Source of the DNA: an uncultured Lachnospiraceae bacterium
GTDB taxonomy: Bacteria > Bacillota > Clostridia > Lachnospirales > Lachnospiraceae
DNA: 35,163 bases
Assembly: GCA_900316805.1 (NCBI GenBank)
Contig: ONEJ01000038.1
Coordinates: 1-35,163, forward strand
Direction of reading: 5' to 3'
The notes under the pieces are model-generated. The model saw nothing but the letters and a program-made list of their open reading frames with translations. It searched no databases and was not told the origin of the DNA. Numbering within the stretch: position 1 is the first letter of the stretch; every line of letters starts with the position of its first letter. The position numbers and the translations under genes were made by a program. Shown one piece after another: positions 11,362 to 19,187 of this stretch.

Positions 11362-12375
11362 TTAATGTTCTTTTGTTGCCTCCACCATGGCATGCAATGT
11401 ATCCAGAGCTTTGCCGGAGTCAATGGTCTTAGCTGCCAGCCGGATTCCAGCCTCCACGCTGTCTGCCATTCCACCGATATAAAGTGCTGCACCTGCATTC
11501 AACAGAACACAGTCTCTCTTTGGTCCCTGCTCCTCACCAGACAGAATTGCCTTTGCGATTTCCGCATTGACAGCGCCATCGCCCCCCCGCAGATCAGTGA
11601 TATCACAGCGCTTAAATCCATACTGCTCCGGTGTCACCTGATAAGTTGTGACCTGTCCATCCTTAATCTCCGATACCGTAGTCTCACCGGTAAGGGACAT
11701 TTCATCCATGTTGTTATCCCCGCTGACTACGAAACCTCTCTCCACACCAAGATTCTTCAGTGCCCCTGCGATGACCCCGGTAAGCTTCGGAGAATACACA
11801 CCGATCATCATCTTCTTTGCACGGGACGGATTGGACAGAGGTCCTAAAATATTAAAGACCGTTCGGATGCCAAGTTCCTTGCGGACCGGTCCCACATATT
11901 TCATGGACGGATTAAAGTGAGGCGCAAACATAAAACCGATGCCCACCGTCTCTACACATTTCTCAACCACCTGGGGATCTGCGGAAATGTTTACCCCCAG
12001 CGCCTCCAGCACATCCCCTGCACCACTCTTGGATGAAATGGAACGGTTGCCGTGCTTTGCCACCGGAAGGCCTGCAGCAGCCACCACAAAGGCAGAAGTT
12101 GTAGAAATATTGAAGGTGTTGGTTCGGTCTCCGCCGGTTCCCACAAAATCTATGTAGTTGTCTACCTTCGGAGAGATCGTGTTTGCTTTTTCTCTCAGCA
12201 CCGCTGCCAGTCCGGTAATCTCGTCGAGGGTCTCCCCCTTCATACGCAGTGCCGTTAGAAAGCATGCAATCTGGGCAACAGTCGCCTGACCGGTTAAGAT
12301 CAGTTCCTGTGCCTTCATTGCCTCCTCTTTTGTCAGATCATTGCCTGCCACCAGTTTGTTTAAAATATCCTGCAT
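11362..12375 (-). CDS. trpD: Anthranilate phosphoribosyltransferase
   Basis: Joins anthranilate to PRPP, the second step of the tryptophan branch. Length 337 residues, normal for a stand-alone TrpD. The PRPP-binding motif VGTGGDRTNTFNIST is near residue 78, followed by KHGNRSISSKSGAGDVLEALG, the anthranilate region FMFAPHFNPSMKYV and the NILGPLSNP segment. AAAGGAGG precedes the ATG. It sits 37 nt after trpA at the distal end of the biosynthetic genes, whereas in most Firmicutes trpD follows trpG. Pullulanase follows 22 nt later. Confidence 0.97.
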   Translation of the reverse strand: MQDILNKLVAGNDLTKEEAMKAQELILTGQATVAQIACFLTALRMKGETLDEITGLAAVLREKANTISPKVDNYIDFVGTGGDRTNTFNISTTSAFVVAAAGLPVAKHGNRSISSKSGAGDVLEALGVNISADPQVVEKCVETVGIGFMFAPHFNPSMKYVGPVRKELGIRTVFNILGPLSNPSRAKKMMIGVYSPKLTGVIAGALKNLGVERGFVVSGDNNMDEMSLTGETTVSEIKDGQVTTYQVTPEQYGFKRCDITDLRGGDGAVNAEIAKAILSGEEQGPKRDCVLLNAGAALYIGGMADSVEAGIRLAAKTIDSGKALDTLHAMVEATKEH

Positions 12376-12412
12376 AATATTGTATCCTCCTTTGATTCTT
12401 ATCTTCTTTCCC

Positions 12413-13207
12413 TTACAGCTGGTTCAGTTCCTTCTTAAAGGTACTGCAGTAATCCGAAGCTGCCCCGGCAGAAAAATCGGTCTCCCGCATCAGATTGATG
12501 AAATGGGAACCTACGATTGCGCCATCGATGATATCTTTCATCGGACGCACATCCTCTGCCGTACGAATGCCAAAGCCCATCATAACCGGTATTTTGGAAA
12601 CTTCTTTTACATTGCTAAGGTAACGAATAACTTCCCGGTGGAAGCTTCCTTCCTGGCCGGTAACACCCATGGAGGATACACAGTAGACAAAGCCTCTTGC
12701 ATTCTCTAAGATCTTCGGCACCCGCTCTTCCGATACCGGAGATACCAGTTGGATCAGAATGGTGTCATCGCTGCCCTCTAAGGCTTTGGAAAGTTCCTCC
12801 TGTTCTTCGAAAGGCAGATCCGGAATAATAAGACCGTCTACTCCACAAGTATGACACATGGAGACGAATTTTTCAATGCCATAATGAAGCACTGTGTTAT
12901 AATACATCATAAAAATGATGGGAAGCTCCACTCCCGCAGCCCTCAGTTCTTTCATACAGGCAAAGGTTTTCTCCAGACTTGCGCCCTTTTGGATAGCTTC
13001 ATAGGAAGCTGCCTGAATGACCGGTCCGTCTGCCACCGGATCCGAGAAAGGAATTCCCAGCTCGATAATATCTGTTCCCGCCTTCTCCTGGGCACAGATT
13101 AAATCCTTCGTCTTTTCATAATCCGGCAAGCCTGCCGTAATGTAAGTAATAAACGCTTTTTCCTTTTTCTCCTGCAATACTGCAAGAGCCTTCTCAATAC
13201 GATTCAT
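12413..13207 (-). CDS. trpA: Tryptophan synthase alpha chain
   Basis: Splits indole-3-glycerol phosphate into indole and glyceraldehyde-3-phosphate and passes indole to TrpB through the tunnel of the alpha2-beta2 complex. The 264-residue TIM barrel has the family signature ELGIPFSDPVADGPVIQ, with the catalytic Glu and Asp near residues 46 and 57. Further segments are GLIIPDLPFEE, QLVSPVSEERVPKI, the phosphate-binding GFGIRTAEDV and DGAIVGSHF. It is 12 nt downstream of trpB, which suggests translational coupling. Confidence 0.98.
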   Translation of the reverse strand: MNRIEKALAVLQEKKEKAFITYITAGLPDYEKTKDLICAQEKAGTDIIELGIPFSDPVADGPVIQAASYEAIQKGASLEKTFACMKELRAAGVELPIIFMMYYNTVLHYGIEKFVSMCHTCGVDGLIIPDLPFEEQEELSKALEGSDDTILIQLVSPVSEERVPKILENARGFVYCVSSMGVTGQEGSFHREVIRYLSNVKEVSKIPVMMGFGIRTAEDVRPMKDIIDGAIVGSHFINLMRETDFSAGAASDYCSTFKKELNQL

Positions 13208-13219
13208 CGCTTTCTCCTC

Positions 13220-14407
13220 CTAGTTCAAATATCCCTTGCCGGCCAGATAGTCGGAAATGGTGTTGACATCCTTATCGCCGCGGCCTGACAGACAGATGAT
13301 CATGCTCTGATCCTTTGTCATTTCCTTTGCCTTCTTAAAGGCATAAGCCACAGCATGGGCGCTCTCGATGGCCGGGATGATTCCCTCCAGCTTGCACAGC
13401 TCCATCAGGGCATCCATGGCTTCGGTATCGGTAATTGCCACATATTTTGCTCTTCCGGTGTCCCGAAGATACGCATGCTCCGGTCCCACCCCGGGATAAT
13501 CCAGACCGGCGGAAATGGAGTGGGCTAGCTGGATATTTCCGTCTGTATCCTGCAGCAGATAGGATTTCATGCCGTGCAGTACCCCCGGCTCCCCAAGCGC
13601 CATGGCGGAAGCGTGCTTTCCGGTTTCGATGCCGAGACCTGCAGCCTCCACACCAATCAGTTCCACATCCTTCTCATCGATGAAATCCGCAAACATACCG
13701 ATGGAGTTGGAACCACCGCCCACACAGGCCATAACCACATCCGGATTTCTACCCTCCACTTCCATATGCTGGCGCTTTGCCTCTTTGCTGATGACGCTCT
13801 GGAATTCTTTTACCATCTTGGGATAAGGATAGGGGCCTACAGCAGAACCAATCACATAGAAGGTATCCTCCGCCGTCTTTGCCCAGGTTCGGATGGCCTC
13901 ATTGGTGGCATCCTTTAAGGTATTGCTTCCGGATTCCACAGAAACAACCTTCGCTCCCAGCATCTCCATACGCATCACATTCAGCTTCTGGCGCTCCATA
14001 TCCTCTTTGCCCATATACACGGTACACTCCATATTAAACAGTGCCGCACCGGTAGCTGTAGCCACACCGTGCTGTCCGGCTCCGGTCTCCGCAATGACCT
14101 TGGTTTTTCCCATACGCTTTGCCAGAAGGATCTGTCCAATGACGTTATTAATTTTATGGGCGCCGGTATGGTTTAAGTCCTCTCTCTTCAAATAAATCTT
14201 TGTGCCGTACTTCTCAGACAGACGCTCCGCAAAATAAAGGGGAGTCTCACGGCCCACGTACTGCTTCAGATAATAGTGGTACTGTTCCATAAACTTTGGA
14301 TCATGAACAGCCTCCTCAAAGGCAGCATCCAGTTCTTCCAAGGTATTCATCAGTGACTCCGCCACATACTGCCCGCCAAATTCTCCGTAATATGCTTTTT
14401 TATTCAT
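13220..14407 (-). CDS. trpB: Tryptophan synthase beta chain
   Basis: PLP enzyme that condenses indole with serine to give tryptophan. The 395-residue product has the TrpB1 plan: start [16 protein letters not shown], the PLP-lysine motif [26 protein letters not shown], the PLP-phosphate loop [15 protein letters not shown], and LSGRGDKD at the end. It begins inside the end of trpF (8-nt overlap) and is followed by trpA. It is the canonical operon-encoded partner of TrpA rather than the trpB2 type. Confidence 0.98.
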
Positions 14408-15053
14408 CTTTTTTCACCCTTTCCGTAAATTCTGTTACCAGATTTTTATCTTTTCCATTGATTCCTTCCACACCGGAGCTTACATCCACCACATCCGGAT
14501 GAAAAAGTTCTATTCCTTCCCTCACGTTCGCCGGGGTAAGCCCACCGGCAAGGATAAAGCTTCTGTCTTTCATAAACGCCTGATTCCGAATATCCGCGGT
14601 GGCCTGCCCCCAGTCAAAGGTCTTGCCGCTGCCAAAGCTTCCGGCATCCACCAGAATTCCTGTGATTTTCCGGGAAAGTTCATCAGGCAGTCCGGACAAA
14701 AAGCTTATTTTATCCTGCAGCTTGGCTGGATCGGTCAAATTCACTGCATACCAGACCGGGATTTCAACCACTTCGAGAACCTTTGCAGACAGTTCCTTAT
14801 GAACCTGCAGGATATCGAATCCTGCCGCCTGCAGGTCACGCACCAGCCCTGCACCCGGGGAAACCGTAACCGCAACGGTTTGGATGTCCGGATTTAACTG
14901 CACTTTCACAGAAAGAGCCTGGAGAATGGATACATTGCGCTTACTTGGCTCATAGAAAACAAAACCGCCATAATCAGCACCCGCTTCGTTTAAATATGCA
15001 GCTTCCTCAGGATGGGTCAGTCCGCAGATTTTTAATTTTACAGATTTTTCCAC
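14400..15053 (-). CDS. trpF: Phosphoribosylanthranilate isomerase
   Basis: Amadori rearrangement of phosphoribosylanthranilate to CdRP in tryptophan synthesis. A stand-alone TIM barrel of 217 residues with the catalytic Cys in the opening strand ([12 protein letters not shown]), then [34 protein letters not shown] with the catalytic Asp, [12 protein letters not shown] and [14 protein letters not shown] start at a GTG ([11 protein letters not shown]) that overlaps the trpC stop, because AAAGGAG lies 11 bases upstream inside trpC; no ATG lies in a suitable place. It overlaps trpB by 8 nt. The trpC-trpF-trpB junctions are therefore fully overlapping. Confidence 0.96.
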
Positions 15054-15814
15054 TTTTTTGCCAGCTCCTTTGGATTTTCTGCTTCCATGAAGGCTCTTCC
15101 TATGAGAAAAGCATCCACGCCGCATTCCTTCAAAAATTTCACATCCGCATCTCCCATGATGCCGCTCTCCGCTACGAACACCTTGTCCTTCGGCACATAG
15201 GGGCGAAGTCTCTTCGTATTCTCCAGAGATATGGTAAAATCCTTCAGATTCCGGTTATTTACACCGATGATCCGGGGATCAAATTTCATGGAGCGCTCGA
15301 TTTCTTCCTCGTTATGGGCTTCCACCAGTACATCCAATTGCAGGCCTCTGGCCAGCTGATAAAAATCATGCATCTGCACATCATCCAGAATGGCTGCAAT
15401 GAGAAGCACCGCGTCTGCCCCGATTGCCTTCGCCTCATAAAACTGATACTCATCAATCATAAAGTCCTTGCGCAGAATGGGCAGCTCCGACTCTTTACGG
15501 ATCTGCTTTAAATAATCCACATTTCCGTCAAAGTGATCCTCTTCTGTCAGGCAGGAAATGGCATCCACCGAGGCGTTATATTCATCGATCCGCTCTAACA
15601 GGTCGATTTTACTGGTGATTTTCCCGAGACTGGGGGATGCCTTCTTGAATTCCCCGATGATGGAGATGCCATCCTTCTTTAAATTATGATAAAAGCAATT
15701 TTCTTCCCGGGTAGGCGTCTCTTCTGCCAGACGTCTCATTTCCTGCAGGGATATTCTATTCTTTTGTTCTGTCAGACGTTTTTTCTTATCTGCAACGATT
15801 TCATCTAATATCAT
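15038..15814 (-). CDS. trpC: Indole-3-glycerol phosphate synthase
   Basis: Closes the indole ring of CdRP with loss of CO2 and water. A 258-residue TIM barrel with MILDEIVADKKKRL at the start, IIGEFKKASPSLG (the catalytic Lys), ISCLTEEDHFDG, LPILRKDFMIDEYQ, VLVEAHNEEEIERS, IIGVNNRNLKDF and VFVAESGI near the end. The ATG is chosen for the ribosome site AAAGGAG, six bases upstream after a Lys-rich stretch; the open frame runs on upstream into trpG but without a ribosome site. TrpC and TrpF are separate proteins here, not fused. Confidence 0.97.
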   Translation of the reverse strand: MILDEIVADKKKRLTEQKNRISLQEMRRLAEETPTREENCFYHNLKKDGISIIGEFKKASPSLGKITSKIDLLERIDEYNASVDAISCLTEEDHFDGNVDYLKQIRKESELPILRKDFMIDEYQFYEAKAIGADAVLLIAAILDDVQMHDFYQLARGLQLDVLVEAHNEEEIERSMKFDPRIIGVNNRNLKDFTISLENTKRLRPYVPKDKVFVAESGIMGDADVKFLKECGVDAFLIGRAFMEAENPKELAKKWKNL

Positions 15815-15857
15815 CTTCTTCTCCTTTATGGAACCTCTGTTGCTGTATGTTCCATTA

Positions 15858-16427
15858 TCACATGGTTCCGTTGACAAAATTTTCAACGATTCGCTTACCG
15901 TGCTCTGTGTAGATGGATTCCGGGTGGAACTGCAGCCCCACCACCGGATATTCCTTATGGCGCACCGCCATAATCTCGCCGTCATCCGTTTTGGCAAGAA
16001 TCCGTAAGGTTTCCGGAAGATCCTCTTCCTGCAAAGCCAGGGAATGATATCTTGCCACCTTGATGGGAGAATCAATCCCGGTAAACACGCTGCTTCCATC
16101 GTGAGTGATCACAGACTGCTTGCCGTGGAACAATGCCTTTGCGTAGGATACTGTCCCACCTAAGGCTTCGCCGATACACTGATGTCCCAGACAAATGCCA
16201 AGGATTGGCTTTTTGCCGGTAAATTCCTTCACCACATCCATGCAGATACCGGCCTCCTTCGGGCTCTTGGGTCCGGGAGAGAGAAGGATACGCTCCGGAT
16301 CCAGCTGTCTGATTTCTTCTATGGTAATTTTATCGTTGCGGACAACCTTAATATCAGAATTAAAAATCCCAATATACTGATAAAGATTGTAGGTAAATGA
16401 GTCGTAATTGTCAATTAACAGTATCAT
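15858..16427 (-). CDS. trpG: Anthranilate synthase component II (glutamine amidotransferase)
   Basis: Provides ammonia from glutamine to TrpE. A 189-residue class I amidotransferase: ILLIDNYDSFTYNLYQY at the N-terminus, LLSPGPKSPKEAG, the nucleophile Cys in PILGICLGHQCIGEALGG, and the catalytic His-Glu pair in GLQFHPESIYTEHG. GGAGG stands before the ATG. It lies 27 nt after trpE and 43 nt before trpC. In Firmicutes such a subunit may also serve the folate enzyme PabB, but the operon position makes TrpG the main role. Confidence 0.97.
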   Translation of the reverse strand: MILLIDNYDSFTYNLYQYIGIFNSDIKVVRNDKITIEEIRQLDPERILLSPGPKSPKEAGICMDVVKEFTGKKPILGICLGHQCIGEALGGTVSYAKALFHGKQSVITHDGSSVFTGIDSPIKVARYHSLALQEEDLPETLRILAKTDDGEIMAVRHKEYPVVGLQFHPESIYTEHGKRIVENFVNGTM

Positions 16428-16454
16428 AACTATTCCTCCATTTCGAACTGGATA

Positions 16455-17867
16455 TTACAAATTGGATTCGTCGATCAGTGTCTTGGCCAGGGCCATCACC
16501 TTGTTGCAGCACTCCTGGTATTCATTCTCCGGTATGGAATCCGCTACAATTCCGGCGCCGGCCTGCAGATATACCTTGTCCCCCTTCTTCACCATGGTAC
16601 GGATCGTAATACAGAAATCCATATCCCCGGAGAAATCCACATAGCCGGTAGCACCACCATACATGCCTCTTCGCACGGTCTCTAATTCATCAATGATCTC
16701 CATGGCCCGGATCTTTGGGGCACCGCTTAAGGTTCCTGCCGGAAGGAAGGAGGACACCAGATCAAAGGGATGGAACTCTCCCTTCTTGCGCCCCTCCACC
16801 TGGGAGACAATGTGCATGACATGGGAATAATTCTGTACCTCCATAAACTGGGTCACCTTGACAGTGCCAAACTCAGCGATGCGTCCCATGTCATTTCTTG
16901 CCAGATCCACTAACATCACATGCTCTGCCCGCTCCTTTTCATCCTGAAGCAGTTCATCCTTGAGAAGGGCATCCTCCTCTGCATCCACGCCTCTTCTTCT
17001 GGTTCCCGCGATAGGACAGGTAAACACCCGCTTGCCCTGCTGCTTTACGATCATCTCCGGAGAACTTCCGATAATCTCGAAATCTCCAAAATTAAAGTAA
17101 TACAGATACGGAGAAGGATTCAGCTCACGGAGTTCCTTGTAGAGGTCAAAACCGCTCTGGCCTGTCTGCACGGTCCATCTCTGGGAAAGCACAGTCTGGA
17201 AAATATGGCCCTCTTTAATATAATGCTTAATCTTGTCGACCTTCTCACAGTACTGTTCGAGAGTATCTGACTGATGCACGATCACGCCGTCATGGACAAA
17301 GGTTTTGGGCTTTTGCTCACCGGCATGGGCTCTGGCCTTCGTAATCATGGCCTCCGCCTCCTCCAAAGCAGCTTTTCGTCCTGCCTCGGAATCCTCTCCA
17401 AGCACAACCCCCGTCAGTGTCTCTGCCACATGATCCACCATGATGAATTTTGTCATCAGCATCATCTGGATGGTCTCAATTCCGATCTCATCCGGATTAT
17501 TGTCCGGCAGCACCTCTGCATACCTTACAAAGTCATAACCAAGGTTTCCTACCAATCCGCCGGAAAAGGACAGCTCCTCATTGTCCTTTACAATGTCAAA
17601 TTCACTGTAATATTCCTTCAGGCGCTCCAGGGGATTGCCCTCACGGATTTCTTCGCTGCCATCCGCCTTTTGGATCACCAGCGAATTGCCTTTTGATGTG
17701 ATGATTTCCTCCGGCTCACAACCGAAAAAGGTATATCGGTCATAATTCTTATCGTAACTCTCCAGCAGGAAGCCCTTCTTATCTCCGGTCAGGCTCTCAT
17801 ACATACCTGTTGCCGTCTCATTCACGATACTGACGGTTTTCTTATACACTCTCAGTCTTCTCTTCAT
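16455..17867 (-). CDS. trpE: Anthranilate synthase component I
   Basis: Converts chorismate and ammonia to anthranilate, the committed step. The 470-residue protein has the N-terminal tryptophan-binding motif region (GFLLESYDKNYDRYTFFG), which predicts feedback inhibition. The chorismate-binding core reads HIFQTVLSQRW, PSPYLYYFNFGDFEIIGSSPEM, PIAGTRRRG, LVDLARNDMGRIAEFGTV, SHVMHIVSQVEG and LSGAPKIRAMEIIDELE, with the late GYVDFSGDMDFCITIRT. The start MKRRLRVYKK is preceded by an extended ribosome site GAGGAGGAG. It is the first gene after the T-box leader, 33 nt past the distal terminator. Confidence 0.97.
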   Translation of the reverse strand: MKRRLRVYKKTVSIVNETATGMYESLTGDKKGFLLESYDKNYDRYTFFGCEPEEIITSKGNSLVIQKADGSEEIREGNPLERLKEYYSEFDIVKDNEELSFSGGLVGNLGYDFVRYAEVLPDNNPDEIGIETIQMMLMTKFIMVDHVAETLTGVVLGEDSEAGRKAALEEAEAMITKARAHAGEQKPKTFVHDGVIVHQSDTLEQYCEKVDKIKHYIKEGHIFQTVLSQRWTVQTGQSGFDLYKELRELNPSPYLYYFNFGDFEIIGSSPEMIVKQQGKRVFTCPIAGTRRRGVDAEEDALLKDELLQDEKERAEHVMLVDLARNDMGRIAEFGTVKVTQFMEVQNYSHVMHIVSQVEGRKKGEFHPFDLVSSFLPAGTLSGAPKIRAMEIIDELETVRRGMYGGATGYVDFSGDMDFCITIRTMVKKGDKVYLQAGAGIVADSIPENEYQECCNKVMALAKTLIDESNL

Positions 17868-17900
17868 GGTTCTCCTCCTCATGTTCTGCTCATATTATGC

Positions 17901-17941
17901 AAAATAAAAGTCCCTGATACAGCTTACGCCATATCAGGGAC
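17901..17941 (-). terminator. Distal T-box terminator before trpE
   Basis: A 10-bp perfect stem, GUCCCUGAUA (17932-17941 and 17910-17919 complements), has a 12-nt loop followed by UUUUAUUUU. Its 5' arm contains the CCCU that would otherwise pair with the T-box AGGG. Confidence 0.9.
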
Positions 17942-17974
17942 GATGTAATCGTGGTGCCACCCTTCTTTCGTTGC

Positions 17975-18094
17975 CTGCGGTACATCGAAGATGTATCGCC
18001 ACATCTGCGGTACATCTTCGATGTATCGTCCCATCTGCGGTACATCTTCGATGTATCGTCCCATCTGCGGTACATCTACAGTACATCTTCGATA
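17975..18094. repeat. Four-copy 30-bp tandem repeat inside the T-box leader
   Basis: On the plus strand the word CTGCGGTACATC recurs at 17975, 18005, 18035 and 18065, an exact 30-bp period. Copies 2 and 3 are identical over 30 bp. Copy 1 has the central TTC replaced by GAA, so its hairpin loop is the reverse complement of the others. Copy 4 has an 11-bp internal insertion and then decays. Each unit holds a 6-bp dyad, TACATC/GATGTA, with a 3-nt loop. There are no spacers, so this is not a CRISPR array. Confidence 0.9.
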
Positions 18095-18100
18095 CCCCAC

Positions 18101-18135
18101 AAAAAAGCAGTTACTTCCGAATCGGAAATAACTGC
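18101..18135 (-). terminator. Proximal T-box terminator
   Basis: A 14-bp stem (GCAGUUAUUUCCGA with UCGGAAGUAACUGC, one GU pair; 18122-18135 and 18107-18120) has a one-base gap and is followed by six U (18101-18106). The loop would open at the apex in practice. It lies about 135 nt upstream of the canonical T-box element. Confidence 0.85.
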
Positions 18136-18367
18136 CACCAATTACGCAACCTCTATGATACAGAAACAGAATCTGTTTCGATATCCTCACCCCTGTAACG
18201 TGGGGGAACGGCTCAGCTACTAGCAACAGACGCTGCATTCACCTCGCATCTAACGAATCCATTCCAGACAGACTATCTTACCAGCTTCCACCACCGCCGG
18301 CTCTCTGTAAAGCATCCTCTGCTGTACTTACCTTCGCTCAATGATTTTGTTTTATTTAACTAATAAC

Positions 18368-18396
18368 ATTATATGCCAAATGTCACTTTCTGTCAA
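18368..18396 (-). promoter_or_regulatory. Consensus sigma-A promoter of the trp operon
   Basis: A perfect TTGACA (18391-18396) and a perfect TATAAT (18368-18373) are 17 nt apart. The TGA in the -35 box is also the stop codon of the upstream SDR gene. Strong constitutive initiation fits control by attenuation further down. Confidence 0.92.
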
Positions 18397-19187
18397 CCCT
18401 TATTTTGAAATCCATGTCCCAGCTTCTTTCTCTGCTGATGACCGGTAATCCCAACATACAAAGACCGGGGAACCAGCCGCACGGCGAAAATGGCAGCCTT
18501 CATACGGAATGTCGGAATAATGACCACTTTCCTCTTCTTCATCATCTTAAGAGCATAAGCTGCGCAGCTTTCTGCCGGAATTCCCGGAAGAGCAAACTCC
18601 ACATTGGCCACATCATTGAATTCCGTGTTCACCGGTCCCGGGCAGAGGGCACCAACATATACGCTGCTTCCCTTTTCCTTCAACTCCTGCGCCAATGCCT
18701 GAGTTAAACTTGCCACATAGGCCTTTGAGGCGTAGTAAGCAGCCATATACGGACCCGCCGGAATCAGTCCCGCTGAAGAAGCAACATTTAAAAGAGCTCC
18801 CTTCTTCTGCTCTTCCATCTTGCGGAGTACCAGCTTCGTCAGCAAATGCATGGCTTTCACGTTGACGTCGATCATTTCAAGTTCTTTCTCTTCATCGGTG
18901 TCCAGAAAACAGCCACAGTCGCCAAAGCCTGCATTATTGATAAAAACGCCGATCCACTTATCTGCCAGGGCATCTACCAGTCTGTAACACTCCGACGTCT
19001 GGGACAGATCCGCAGGAAATACTTCGCTGTCGCATCCCTGCTCCTTTAGGTACTGTGCGAGCGTGGTAAGGCGTTCTCTCCGCCTCGCCACCAAAAGCAG
19101 TGTATATCCTTCCCCTGCCAGCTGTCTGGCAAAAGCCCTTCCGATTCCCGAGCTGGCTCCTGTCACTACAGCATATTTTTTTTGCAT
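18393..19187 (-). CDS. Short-chain dehydrogenase/reductase (SDR)
   Basis: A 264-residue NAD(P)-dependent oxidoreductase of the classical SDR family. It has the cofactor motif VVTGASSGIGRA near residues 7-18, an Arg-rich stretch after strand 2 (VARRRERL) that favours NADP, INNAGFGDCG, the catalytic Ser in NVASSAG and the Tyr-Lys pair in YYASKAYVAS, then CPGPVNTEF. It ends in a basic tail. The substrate is unknown; the closest general type is the acyl-chain/sepiapterin-like SDRs of Firmicutes. The start MQKKYAVV is chosen for AGGTGA eight bases upstream. It lies 16 nt after orf157 at the end of the degV-uppP run, and its stop codon lies in the -35 box of the trp promoter. Confidence 0.9.
   Translation of the reverse strand: MQKKYAVVTGASSGIGRAFARQLAGEGYTLLLVARRRERLTTLAQYLKEQGCDSEVFPADLSQTSECYRLVDALADKWIGVFINNAGFGDCGCFLDTDEEKELEMIDVNVKAMHLLTKLVLRKMEEQKKGALLNVASSAGLIPAGPYMAAYYASKAYVASLTQALAQELKEKGSSVYVGALCPGPVNTEFNDVANVEFALPGIPAESCAAYALKMMKKRKVVIIPTFRMKAAIFAVRLVPRSLYVGITGHQQRKKLGHGFQNKG

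Follow-up and report, generated by a model that had tools for sequence, protein, structure and literature searches.

A trp T-box Leader with One Specifier and Two Candidate Transcription Gates in an Uncultured Lachnospiraceae Bacterium

Introduction

Can a leader RNA that reads a single tRNA control the polymerase at two successive terminators? The question is raised by the region upstream of a trp operon in a 35,163-nt stretch of DNA from an uncultured Lachnospiraceae bacterium (assembly GCA_900316805.1, contig ONEJ01000038.1, positions 1–35,163), here called the window. An initial annotation proposed a trp T-box with one specifier and two antiterminator/terminator modules at this site.

Vitreschak et al. 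are said, in a 2008 abstract, to have distinguished a structural class of T-boxes with duplicated terminator–antiterminator elements. The class reportedly has one specifier domain and two terminator–antiterminator pairs, and the window's leader has both. "Partially tandem T-boxes" are in print, and their modes of action are called unknown in PMC7583486. PMC12452182 reports an enrichment of full tandem T-boxes upstream of the trp genes of Bacillota, counting units that have an aptamer of their own. The window's leader resembles these in having two terminators in series before trpE for the same amino acid, but it has one Stem I only.

Architecture of the Leader

The operon is encoded at 11362–17882 in the order trpE-G-C-F-B-A-D, with trpD last (from the best NCBIfam matches, that of trpF being below the cut-offs of its models). 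The first gene, trpE (16455–17882, minus strand), is over the cut-off of NCBIfam TIGR00564. Its likely start, judged by eye, is the ATG at 17867; within 17867–17882, the ATG of the longest ORF overlaps the ribosome site GGAGGAG. A promoter, TTGACA-17-TATAAT, is seen at 18396–18368 and fits the consensus at 12/12 positions. The T-box leader (17901–18361) lies between the promoter and trpE. The promoter and all features of the leader below are on the minus strand.

The Rfam T-box model RF00230 matches 17933–18350 over its full length (model 1–219 of 219; 83.8 bits, E 1.9e-18), with Stem I, specifier and T-box antiterminator all included; the score is below the gathering score of 93, and a scan at the default threshold lists no match. 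In the alignment, 167 nt are inserted in Stem III. Stem I with its T-loops (AGAGA...GGUGG), Stem II and the start of Stem IIA/B correspond to 18202–18350. The specifier UGG, followed by A, is placed at 18261–18259 by its sequence and its position in the alignment. In the tRNA-Trp of the same genome, the anticodon is the complementary CCA and the acceptor stem is followed by G (L114:266); the resulting GCCA end fits the UGGC of both modules. Within 17600–18700, at a maximum E of 10, RF00230 finds no second T-box match, no second Stem I and no second specifier. The single Stem I with a UGG specifier is thus confirmed; a second Stem I with its own specifier had been named in the initial annotation as one finding that would refute its proposal.

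Between Stem IIA/B and Stem III there is an extra hairpin, GAUAU...GUAUC (18157–18185), which is an insert relative to RF00230. Its five outer pairs are invariant in an alignment of 20 leaders (A1). A similar hairpin is also seen in trp T-boxes without module 1 (L019 and L137). Stem III is formed by GUUGC (18150–18146) and GCAAC (17974–17970), the latter followed by GAA; both strands are assigned from the RF00230 alignment and from the strand-swap test on the whole set described below.

Module 1 contains the sequence AAUUGG (18143–18138), the 5' strand of antiterminator 1, which can pair with CCGAUU (18125–18120). They are separated in part by UGGC (18137–18134), the presumed partner of the tRNA-Trp 3' end (GCCA). 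The 3' strand overlaps the arm and the loop of terminator 1 (T1; 18101–18136), a 14-bp hairpin (18136–18106) with a U-run. The helix of antiterminator 1 contributes -2.4 kcal/mol; a 42-nt stretch that includes T1 folds at -19.7 kcal/mol. Module 2 contains antiterminator 2 (17936–17963), AGGG-UGGCACC-ACGA...UCGU-CCCU in the RF00230 alignment, and terminator 2 (T2; 17901–17941), a hairpin (17941–17910) with a U-run. Antiterminator 2 folds at -6.0 kcal/mol and the 75-nt stretch with T2 at -27.3 kcal/mol. These two hairpins are the terminator-like sites detected in a 601-base stretch, where shuffled sequences give 0.2 (sd 0.4).

As read from its sequence, the leader is a lone T-box: it has a single Stem I and a single UGG specifier, followed by two predicted intrinsic terminators, each competing with an antiterminator that bears UGGC. 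It shares with the canonical transcriptional T-box (RF00230) Stem I with UGG, Stem II, Stem IIA/B, Stem III, a UGGN antiterminator and a terminator. What it adds, in the loop of Stem III, is a second terminator together with a short antiterminator belonging to it. The criterion of a full tandem T-box is a second Stem I and specifier, and here the space between the gates holds an array of 30-bp repeats.

A canonical antiterminator consists of helix A1, the 7-nt bulge UGGNACC and helix A2. In module 1, helix A1 and UGGC are present, and an open loop replaces the bulge and helix A2. The second module is canonical and the first shortened, as had been proposed. The terminal G-U pair of helix A2 is named as the chief sensor of the aminoacyl group in PMC7583486. 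Against an action of tRNA at gate 1 stand the weakness of antiterminator 1 on its own and the missing helix A2, through which charged tRNA would be rejected.

Pairing of Antiterminator 1 in Related Leaders

The short helix was tested by swapping strands between leaders. The 3' strand was anchored blind to pairing: the first stretch of at least three U/C bases before a purine was located, and its final two bases served as the anchor. Among 63 leaders, chosen for UGG and a hairpin with a U-run, so that these two features are conserved by choice and pairing alone is tested, 89.7% of 378 cells are paired; swapping of strands gives 85.9% (sd 0.88), and 2/20,000 swaps are as high, in permutations that ignore the relatedness of leaders. 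When reduced to 32 distinct strand pairs, the values are 82.8% against 77.5%, with 72/20,000 as high. Sliding the register by 1–2 positions lowers the pairing to 17–65% (53 leaders). At least four of the six pairs are formed in 58/63 leaders, and fewer in 5/63. Compensated forms include AAUUAG/CUAAUU, UUUUGG/CUAAAA, UUUUAG/CUAGAA and AUUUGG/CCAAAU. UGGC is present in 62/66 leaders of a set chosen for UGGC or UGGU. The strand-swap tests over many leaders, including those of Stem III below, support the predicted short antiterminator helix and Stem III; the comparison of the short helix also supports the claim of one specifier with two modules.

The set was made as follows. Removal of exact copies reduced 101 leaders to 75; 15 rows without detected UGG and T1 were dropped, and near-copies more than 0.9 alike were removed (58 to 56 leaders, and five more later). 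L133 and L135 were dropped from automatic detection, L135 being read by eye. The automatic filter failed to pick up L158 and L165, which reading by eye showed to be dual. A further 30 loci contributed ten dual rows that were new; the rest were five copies, six loci lacking T1, L225, L223, and seven in which no landmark was found (unread). L225 was missed by the script, and its module 1 is visible on reading. L223 has module 1 and a second hairpin with a U-run, but no T-box motif, and was left unclassified. L074, L077 and L168 have a module 1 of a different type and were therefore left out of the tests of the helix and of strand sharing.

Position of Module 1 in Stem III

In the RF00230 alignment, module 1 and the 30-bp repeats sit in the loop of Stem III, enclosed by GUUGC/GCAAC. 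Neither this enclosure nor the repeat array had been noticed in the initial annotation. Over 66 non-redundant dual leaders, Stem III pairing has a mean of -11.14 kcal/mol with the leaders' own strands and -6.74 kcal/mol (sd of the mean 0.28) with swapped ones, and 0/20,000 swaps are as low. When the six bases of antiterminator 1 are omitted, the values are -7.05 and -5.16 kcal/mol, again with 0/20,000 as low (66 leaders). Row by row (56 leaders), no swap is as good in 11 rows. For the window's leader alone, 17/55 swaps are as good, because its near relatives share its Stem III strands. Enclosure has no support of its own in L039 (35/55 swaps as good), L074 (27/55), L077 (45/55) and L163 (29/55). 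GAA lies at most 10 nt before the T-box in 54/66 leaders. This fits the Stem III-AA motif described in PMC7583486. As a set, the related leaders support the placement of module 1 within the predicted Stem III loop of the canonical module 2.

The 5' strand of antiterminator 1 can also take part in Stem III. Over 63 leaders it adds a total of -260.7 kcal/mol to Stem III pairing, against -168.5 kcal/mol (sd 13.3) for shuffled strands, with 0/300 as low. The gain is at least 2 kcal/mol in 51/63 leaders, with an individual p of at most 0.05 in only 12. The effect is absent in the window's leader, where the strand adds -1.4 kcal/mol and shuffled strands -2.8 kcal/mol. A cruder test pointed less clearly in the same direction (-71.2 against -35.9, sd 8.2; 0/500; p at most 0.05 in only 8/56 leaders), with no clear gain in the longest run (3.96 against 3.81, sd 0.11), and was replaced by this Stem III energy test. 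One strand could therefore serve gate 1 and then the Stem III of gate 2 in many relatives, although this is not demonstrable in the window's leader. Across the set, the sharing suggests that a single tRNA might be passed on from the first gate to the second.

Distribution of Dual Leaders

A model of module 1 (R1) matches 32/62 genomes of the genus, the own genome included, under search filters that lose some weak matches. Among the 30 genus genomes without an R1 match, a TrpE-like match reaches E 1e-60 or better in 11. One of the genomes without R1 (G001) has a TrpE 85% identical, preceded by a plain Stem III leader without T1 or module 1. In another (G006; TrpE 77% identical), the contig starts inside the gene. 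The nine further TrpE-like matches in such genomes show 42–46% identity. In the same genome as the window, seven other T-boxes precede genes read by eye as tRNA synthetases; these have no R1 match at E of at most 10 and no module 1 by eye.

In the order as a whole, R1 matches 12/295 genomes. By reading, these are the own genome; five with UGG and T1 (L069, L073, L074, L075 and L077), from three other families; L070 and L071, from another family, with T1 in Stem III and no UGG; and L072, L076, L078 and L079, without T1.

A search with TrpE, independent of R1, gave the best 80 loci, of which 48 (L121–L167 and L169) are at least 66% identical. Of these 48 close loci, 33 are titled Lachnospiraceae or a genus that we take to belong to it. 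The rest carry titles such as Clostridiales, Eubacteriales or Eubacterium, with a single one titled Muribaculaceae. The trpE of the last (L124; Bacteroidota by its title) is very close in the tree to that of a locus titled Blautia (L122), and its title is possibly an error. Of the 48 leaders, 42 were judged, by script and by eye. L126, L133, L134, L162 and L166 were excluded with their leader missing or cut short, as was L154, in the leader of which no T-box motif was found.

The 42 assessable leaders, all before a trpE at least 66% identical, comprise 31 dual, 7 module-2-only and 4 module-1-only leaders, and the layout of the window's leader is found again in related genomes. Dual leaders are present in the isolates Roseburia hominis An869 (L132), Roseburia sp. 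1XD42-69 (L151) and Hominifimenecus microfluidus CLA-AA-H215 (L156). With 31/42 of the close leaders dual and versions in other families, the dual layout looks old.

Leaders with a Single Gate and the Origin of Module 1

The module-2-only leaders are L137, L138, L140, L142, L155, L160 and L164. The module-1-only leaders are L143, L147, L150 and L152, all from records titled as metagenome-assembled. The latter four retain Stem I, Stem II and Stem IIA/B; the RF00230 alignment skips the antiterminator in them, and the interval from T1 to trpE showed no T-box motif. Only 26 nt separate the end of the U-run from the start codon in L152.

In a TrpE tree of the 42 rows, with G001 left out, the module-1-only rows form one clade (support 99/96) beside the dual L144 (99/99). 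The module-2-only rows fall by eye in at least three separate places among the dual rows. The pattern can be read as a probable dual ancestor with repeated loss of one or the other gate. The natural one-gate versions of both kinds suggest that each gate might work alone.

The design had been called half-duplicated, a description that should be qualified: besides being nested in the Stem III of module 2, module 1 has neither the helix A2 nor the 7-nt bulge of the canonical antiterminator, and in one clade it stands alone. Full-size versions of module 1 with helix A2 are present in two loci. In L168 it reads UUGGG-UGGUUAA-ACGA...UCGU-CCCAA and lies, by eye, inside a 12-bp Stem III. In L074 it is taken by Rfam as the T-box, and the enclosure by Stem III is unsupported, as given above. 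Because of these two, the short module 1 looks like a putative trimmed copy of a complete antiterminator.

Mechanism and Alternative Explanations

The leader is best explained as one T-box that senses tRNA-Trp and controls two successive transcription gates, and we give this reading a probability of about 0.68. Stem I would read one tRNA-Trp through UGG. Once module 1 has emerged from the polymerase, an uncharged tRNA would pair through its GCCA end with the UGGC of the short antiterminator (AAUUGG/CCGAUU, with its open loop). Antiterminator 1 with the bound tRNA would keep free the strand that otherwise forms T1. After the polymerase has passed gate 1, Stem III would close round module 1, the same tRNA end would shift to the canonical UGGCACC bulge, and T2 would be blocked in turn. 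Charged tRNA would fail at either gate. Read-through would then be the product of two probabilities, with less leakage and a steeper response. Sequence and comparison establish the anatomy, the competing pairings, the nesting, the broad distribution and the natural one-gate leaders of both kinds; from these we infer an action of tRNA at module 1, termination at T1, a serial hand-off and a sharper response. PMC9413887 states for double T-boxes that they might act cooperatively and sharpen the response. Evidence that speaks against the reading includes the close relatives that manage without module 1 (7/42, and G001) and the T1 without UGG in L070 and L071. A need for two tRNAs, which the initial annotation had left as an option, is unlikely because there is only one Stem I.

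It can be speculated further, and this we hold only tentatively, that module 1 is a second, minimal T-box switch. It would have a six-pair helix and UGGC in an open loop, without A2, would read the tRNA end alone in one clade, and would be nested in the canonical Stem III in most relatives examined. With its 5' strand shared with Stem III, the closure of Stem III would dissolve gate 1 and pass one tRNA to gate 2, which amounts to a two-step proofreading ratchet. If module 1 works without helix A2, it offers a test of the view that sensing of the tRNA end needs the full discriminator.

The action of tRNA at gate 1 is what the strongest alternative denies. T1 might truly terminate, or partly attenuate, transcription without any response to tRNA and so lower the basal flow; module 2 alone would sense tRNA-Trp, and UUGGUGGC would be conserved only as a part of the terminator arm. 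A weak antiterminator 1 without A2 is expected in that case. UGGC overlaps the arm of T1 in many leaders, and L070 and L071 retain the T1 hairpin without UGG, as this explanation would have it. Yet the AAUUGG strand is outside the T1 hairpin and nevertheless covaries with CCGAUU. The module-1-only leaders, in turn, keep Stem I, Stem II and Stem IIA/B and showed no further T-box motif up to trpE; this makes best sense if module 1 answers tRNA. We consider the tRNA-independent terminator unlikely.

Less likely still, the T1 hairpin is not a terminator but belongs to Stem III as a structural or pausing element, allowing the tRNA time to bind before the canonical gate. Its position inside Stem III, at the place where plain leaders have a short Stem III, agrees with such a role. 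However, a U-run directly follows the 14-pair hairpin, as in terminators, and in four leaders this hairpin is the sole terminator-like gate. That module 1 is the decaying, functionless first half of a full tandem T-box is highly improbable: full tandem T-boxes are enriched before trp genes in Bacillota (PMC12452182) and L168 and L074 carry full-size antiterminators as module 1, but many genera share the short form, with compensatory changes, and one clade has kept it as its only gate.

Returning to the two gates in series, the finding is real and recurrent, and it probably functions as a second gate. Because relatives carry dual, module-1-only and module-2-only leaders in front of one and the same gene, what a second gate is worth can be tested directly. 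The general class is already in print, though little studied. In the accessible parts of the open-access T-box literature, no description of the Stem III nesting, the A2-less antiterminator or module-1-only leaders was found. Candidate novelties, subject to the content of Vitreschak et al. 2008, would be the nesting itself, the shortened first switch and the relatives with one gate only.

Neighboring Features and Minor Observations

Two other kinds of trp control were considered for this leader. The ORF at 17924–18238 has, by eye, no run of Trp codons before T1, and leader-peptide attenuation was rejected. TRAP control was also rejected, with no match to PF02081 in the own assembly (82% complete).

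Two other loci show variations of the layout. In L208 (G603), a dual leader precedes a gene that reads like a transporter solute-binding protein, so the layout is not confined to trp enzymes. Its Stem III appears to use the whole AUUGG strand. In L075 (G300; another family), the leader precedes a trpC-like gene. Here a short UGGC module comes straight after Stem IIA/B, and it is followed by the motif UUGGCACAGC and a second hairpin with a U-run.

The repeat array between the gates (17975–18077) consists of 3.4 tandem copies of a 30-bp palindromic unit (UACAUC...GAUGUA), with 93% matches in TRF. A 15-mer of the repeat, with at most one mismatch, occurs three times in the genome assembly, and all three are in 17975–18077. 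As this 15-mer is confined to the leader in the assembly, a dispersed element was rejected. A 25-nt match to the repeat stretch is seen at G000:C8, along with weaker similarity elsewhere in the genus. In the close relative G018, only 6 nt are present between the two matched blocks at the site of the repeat.
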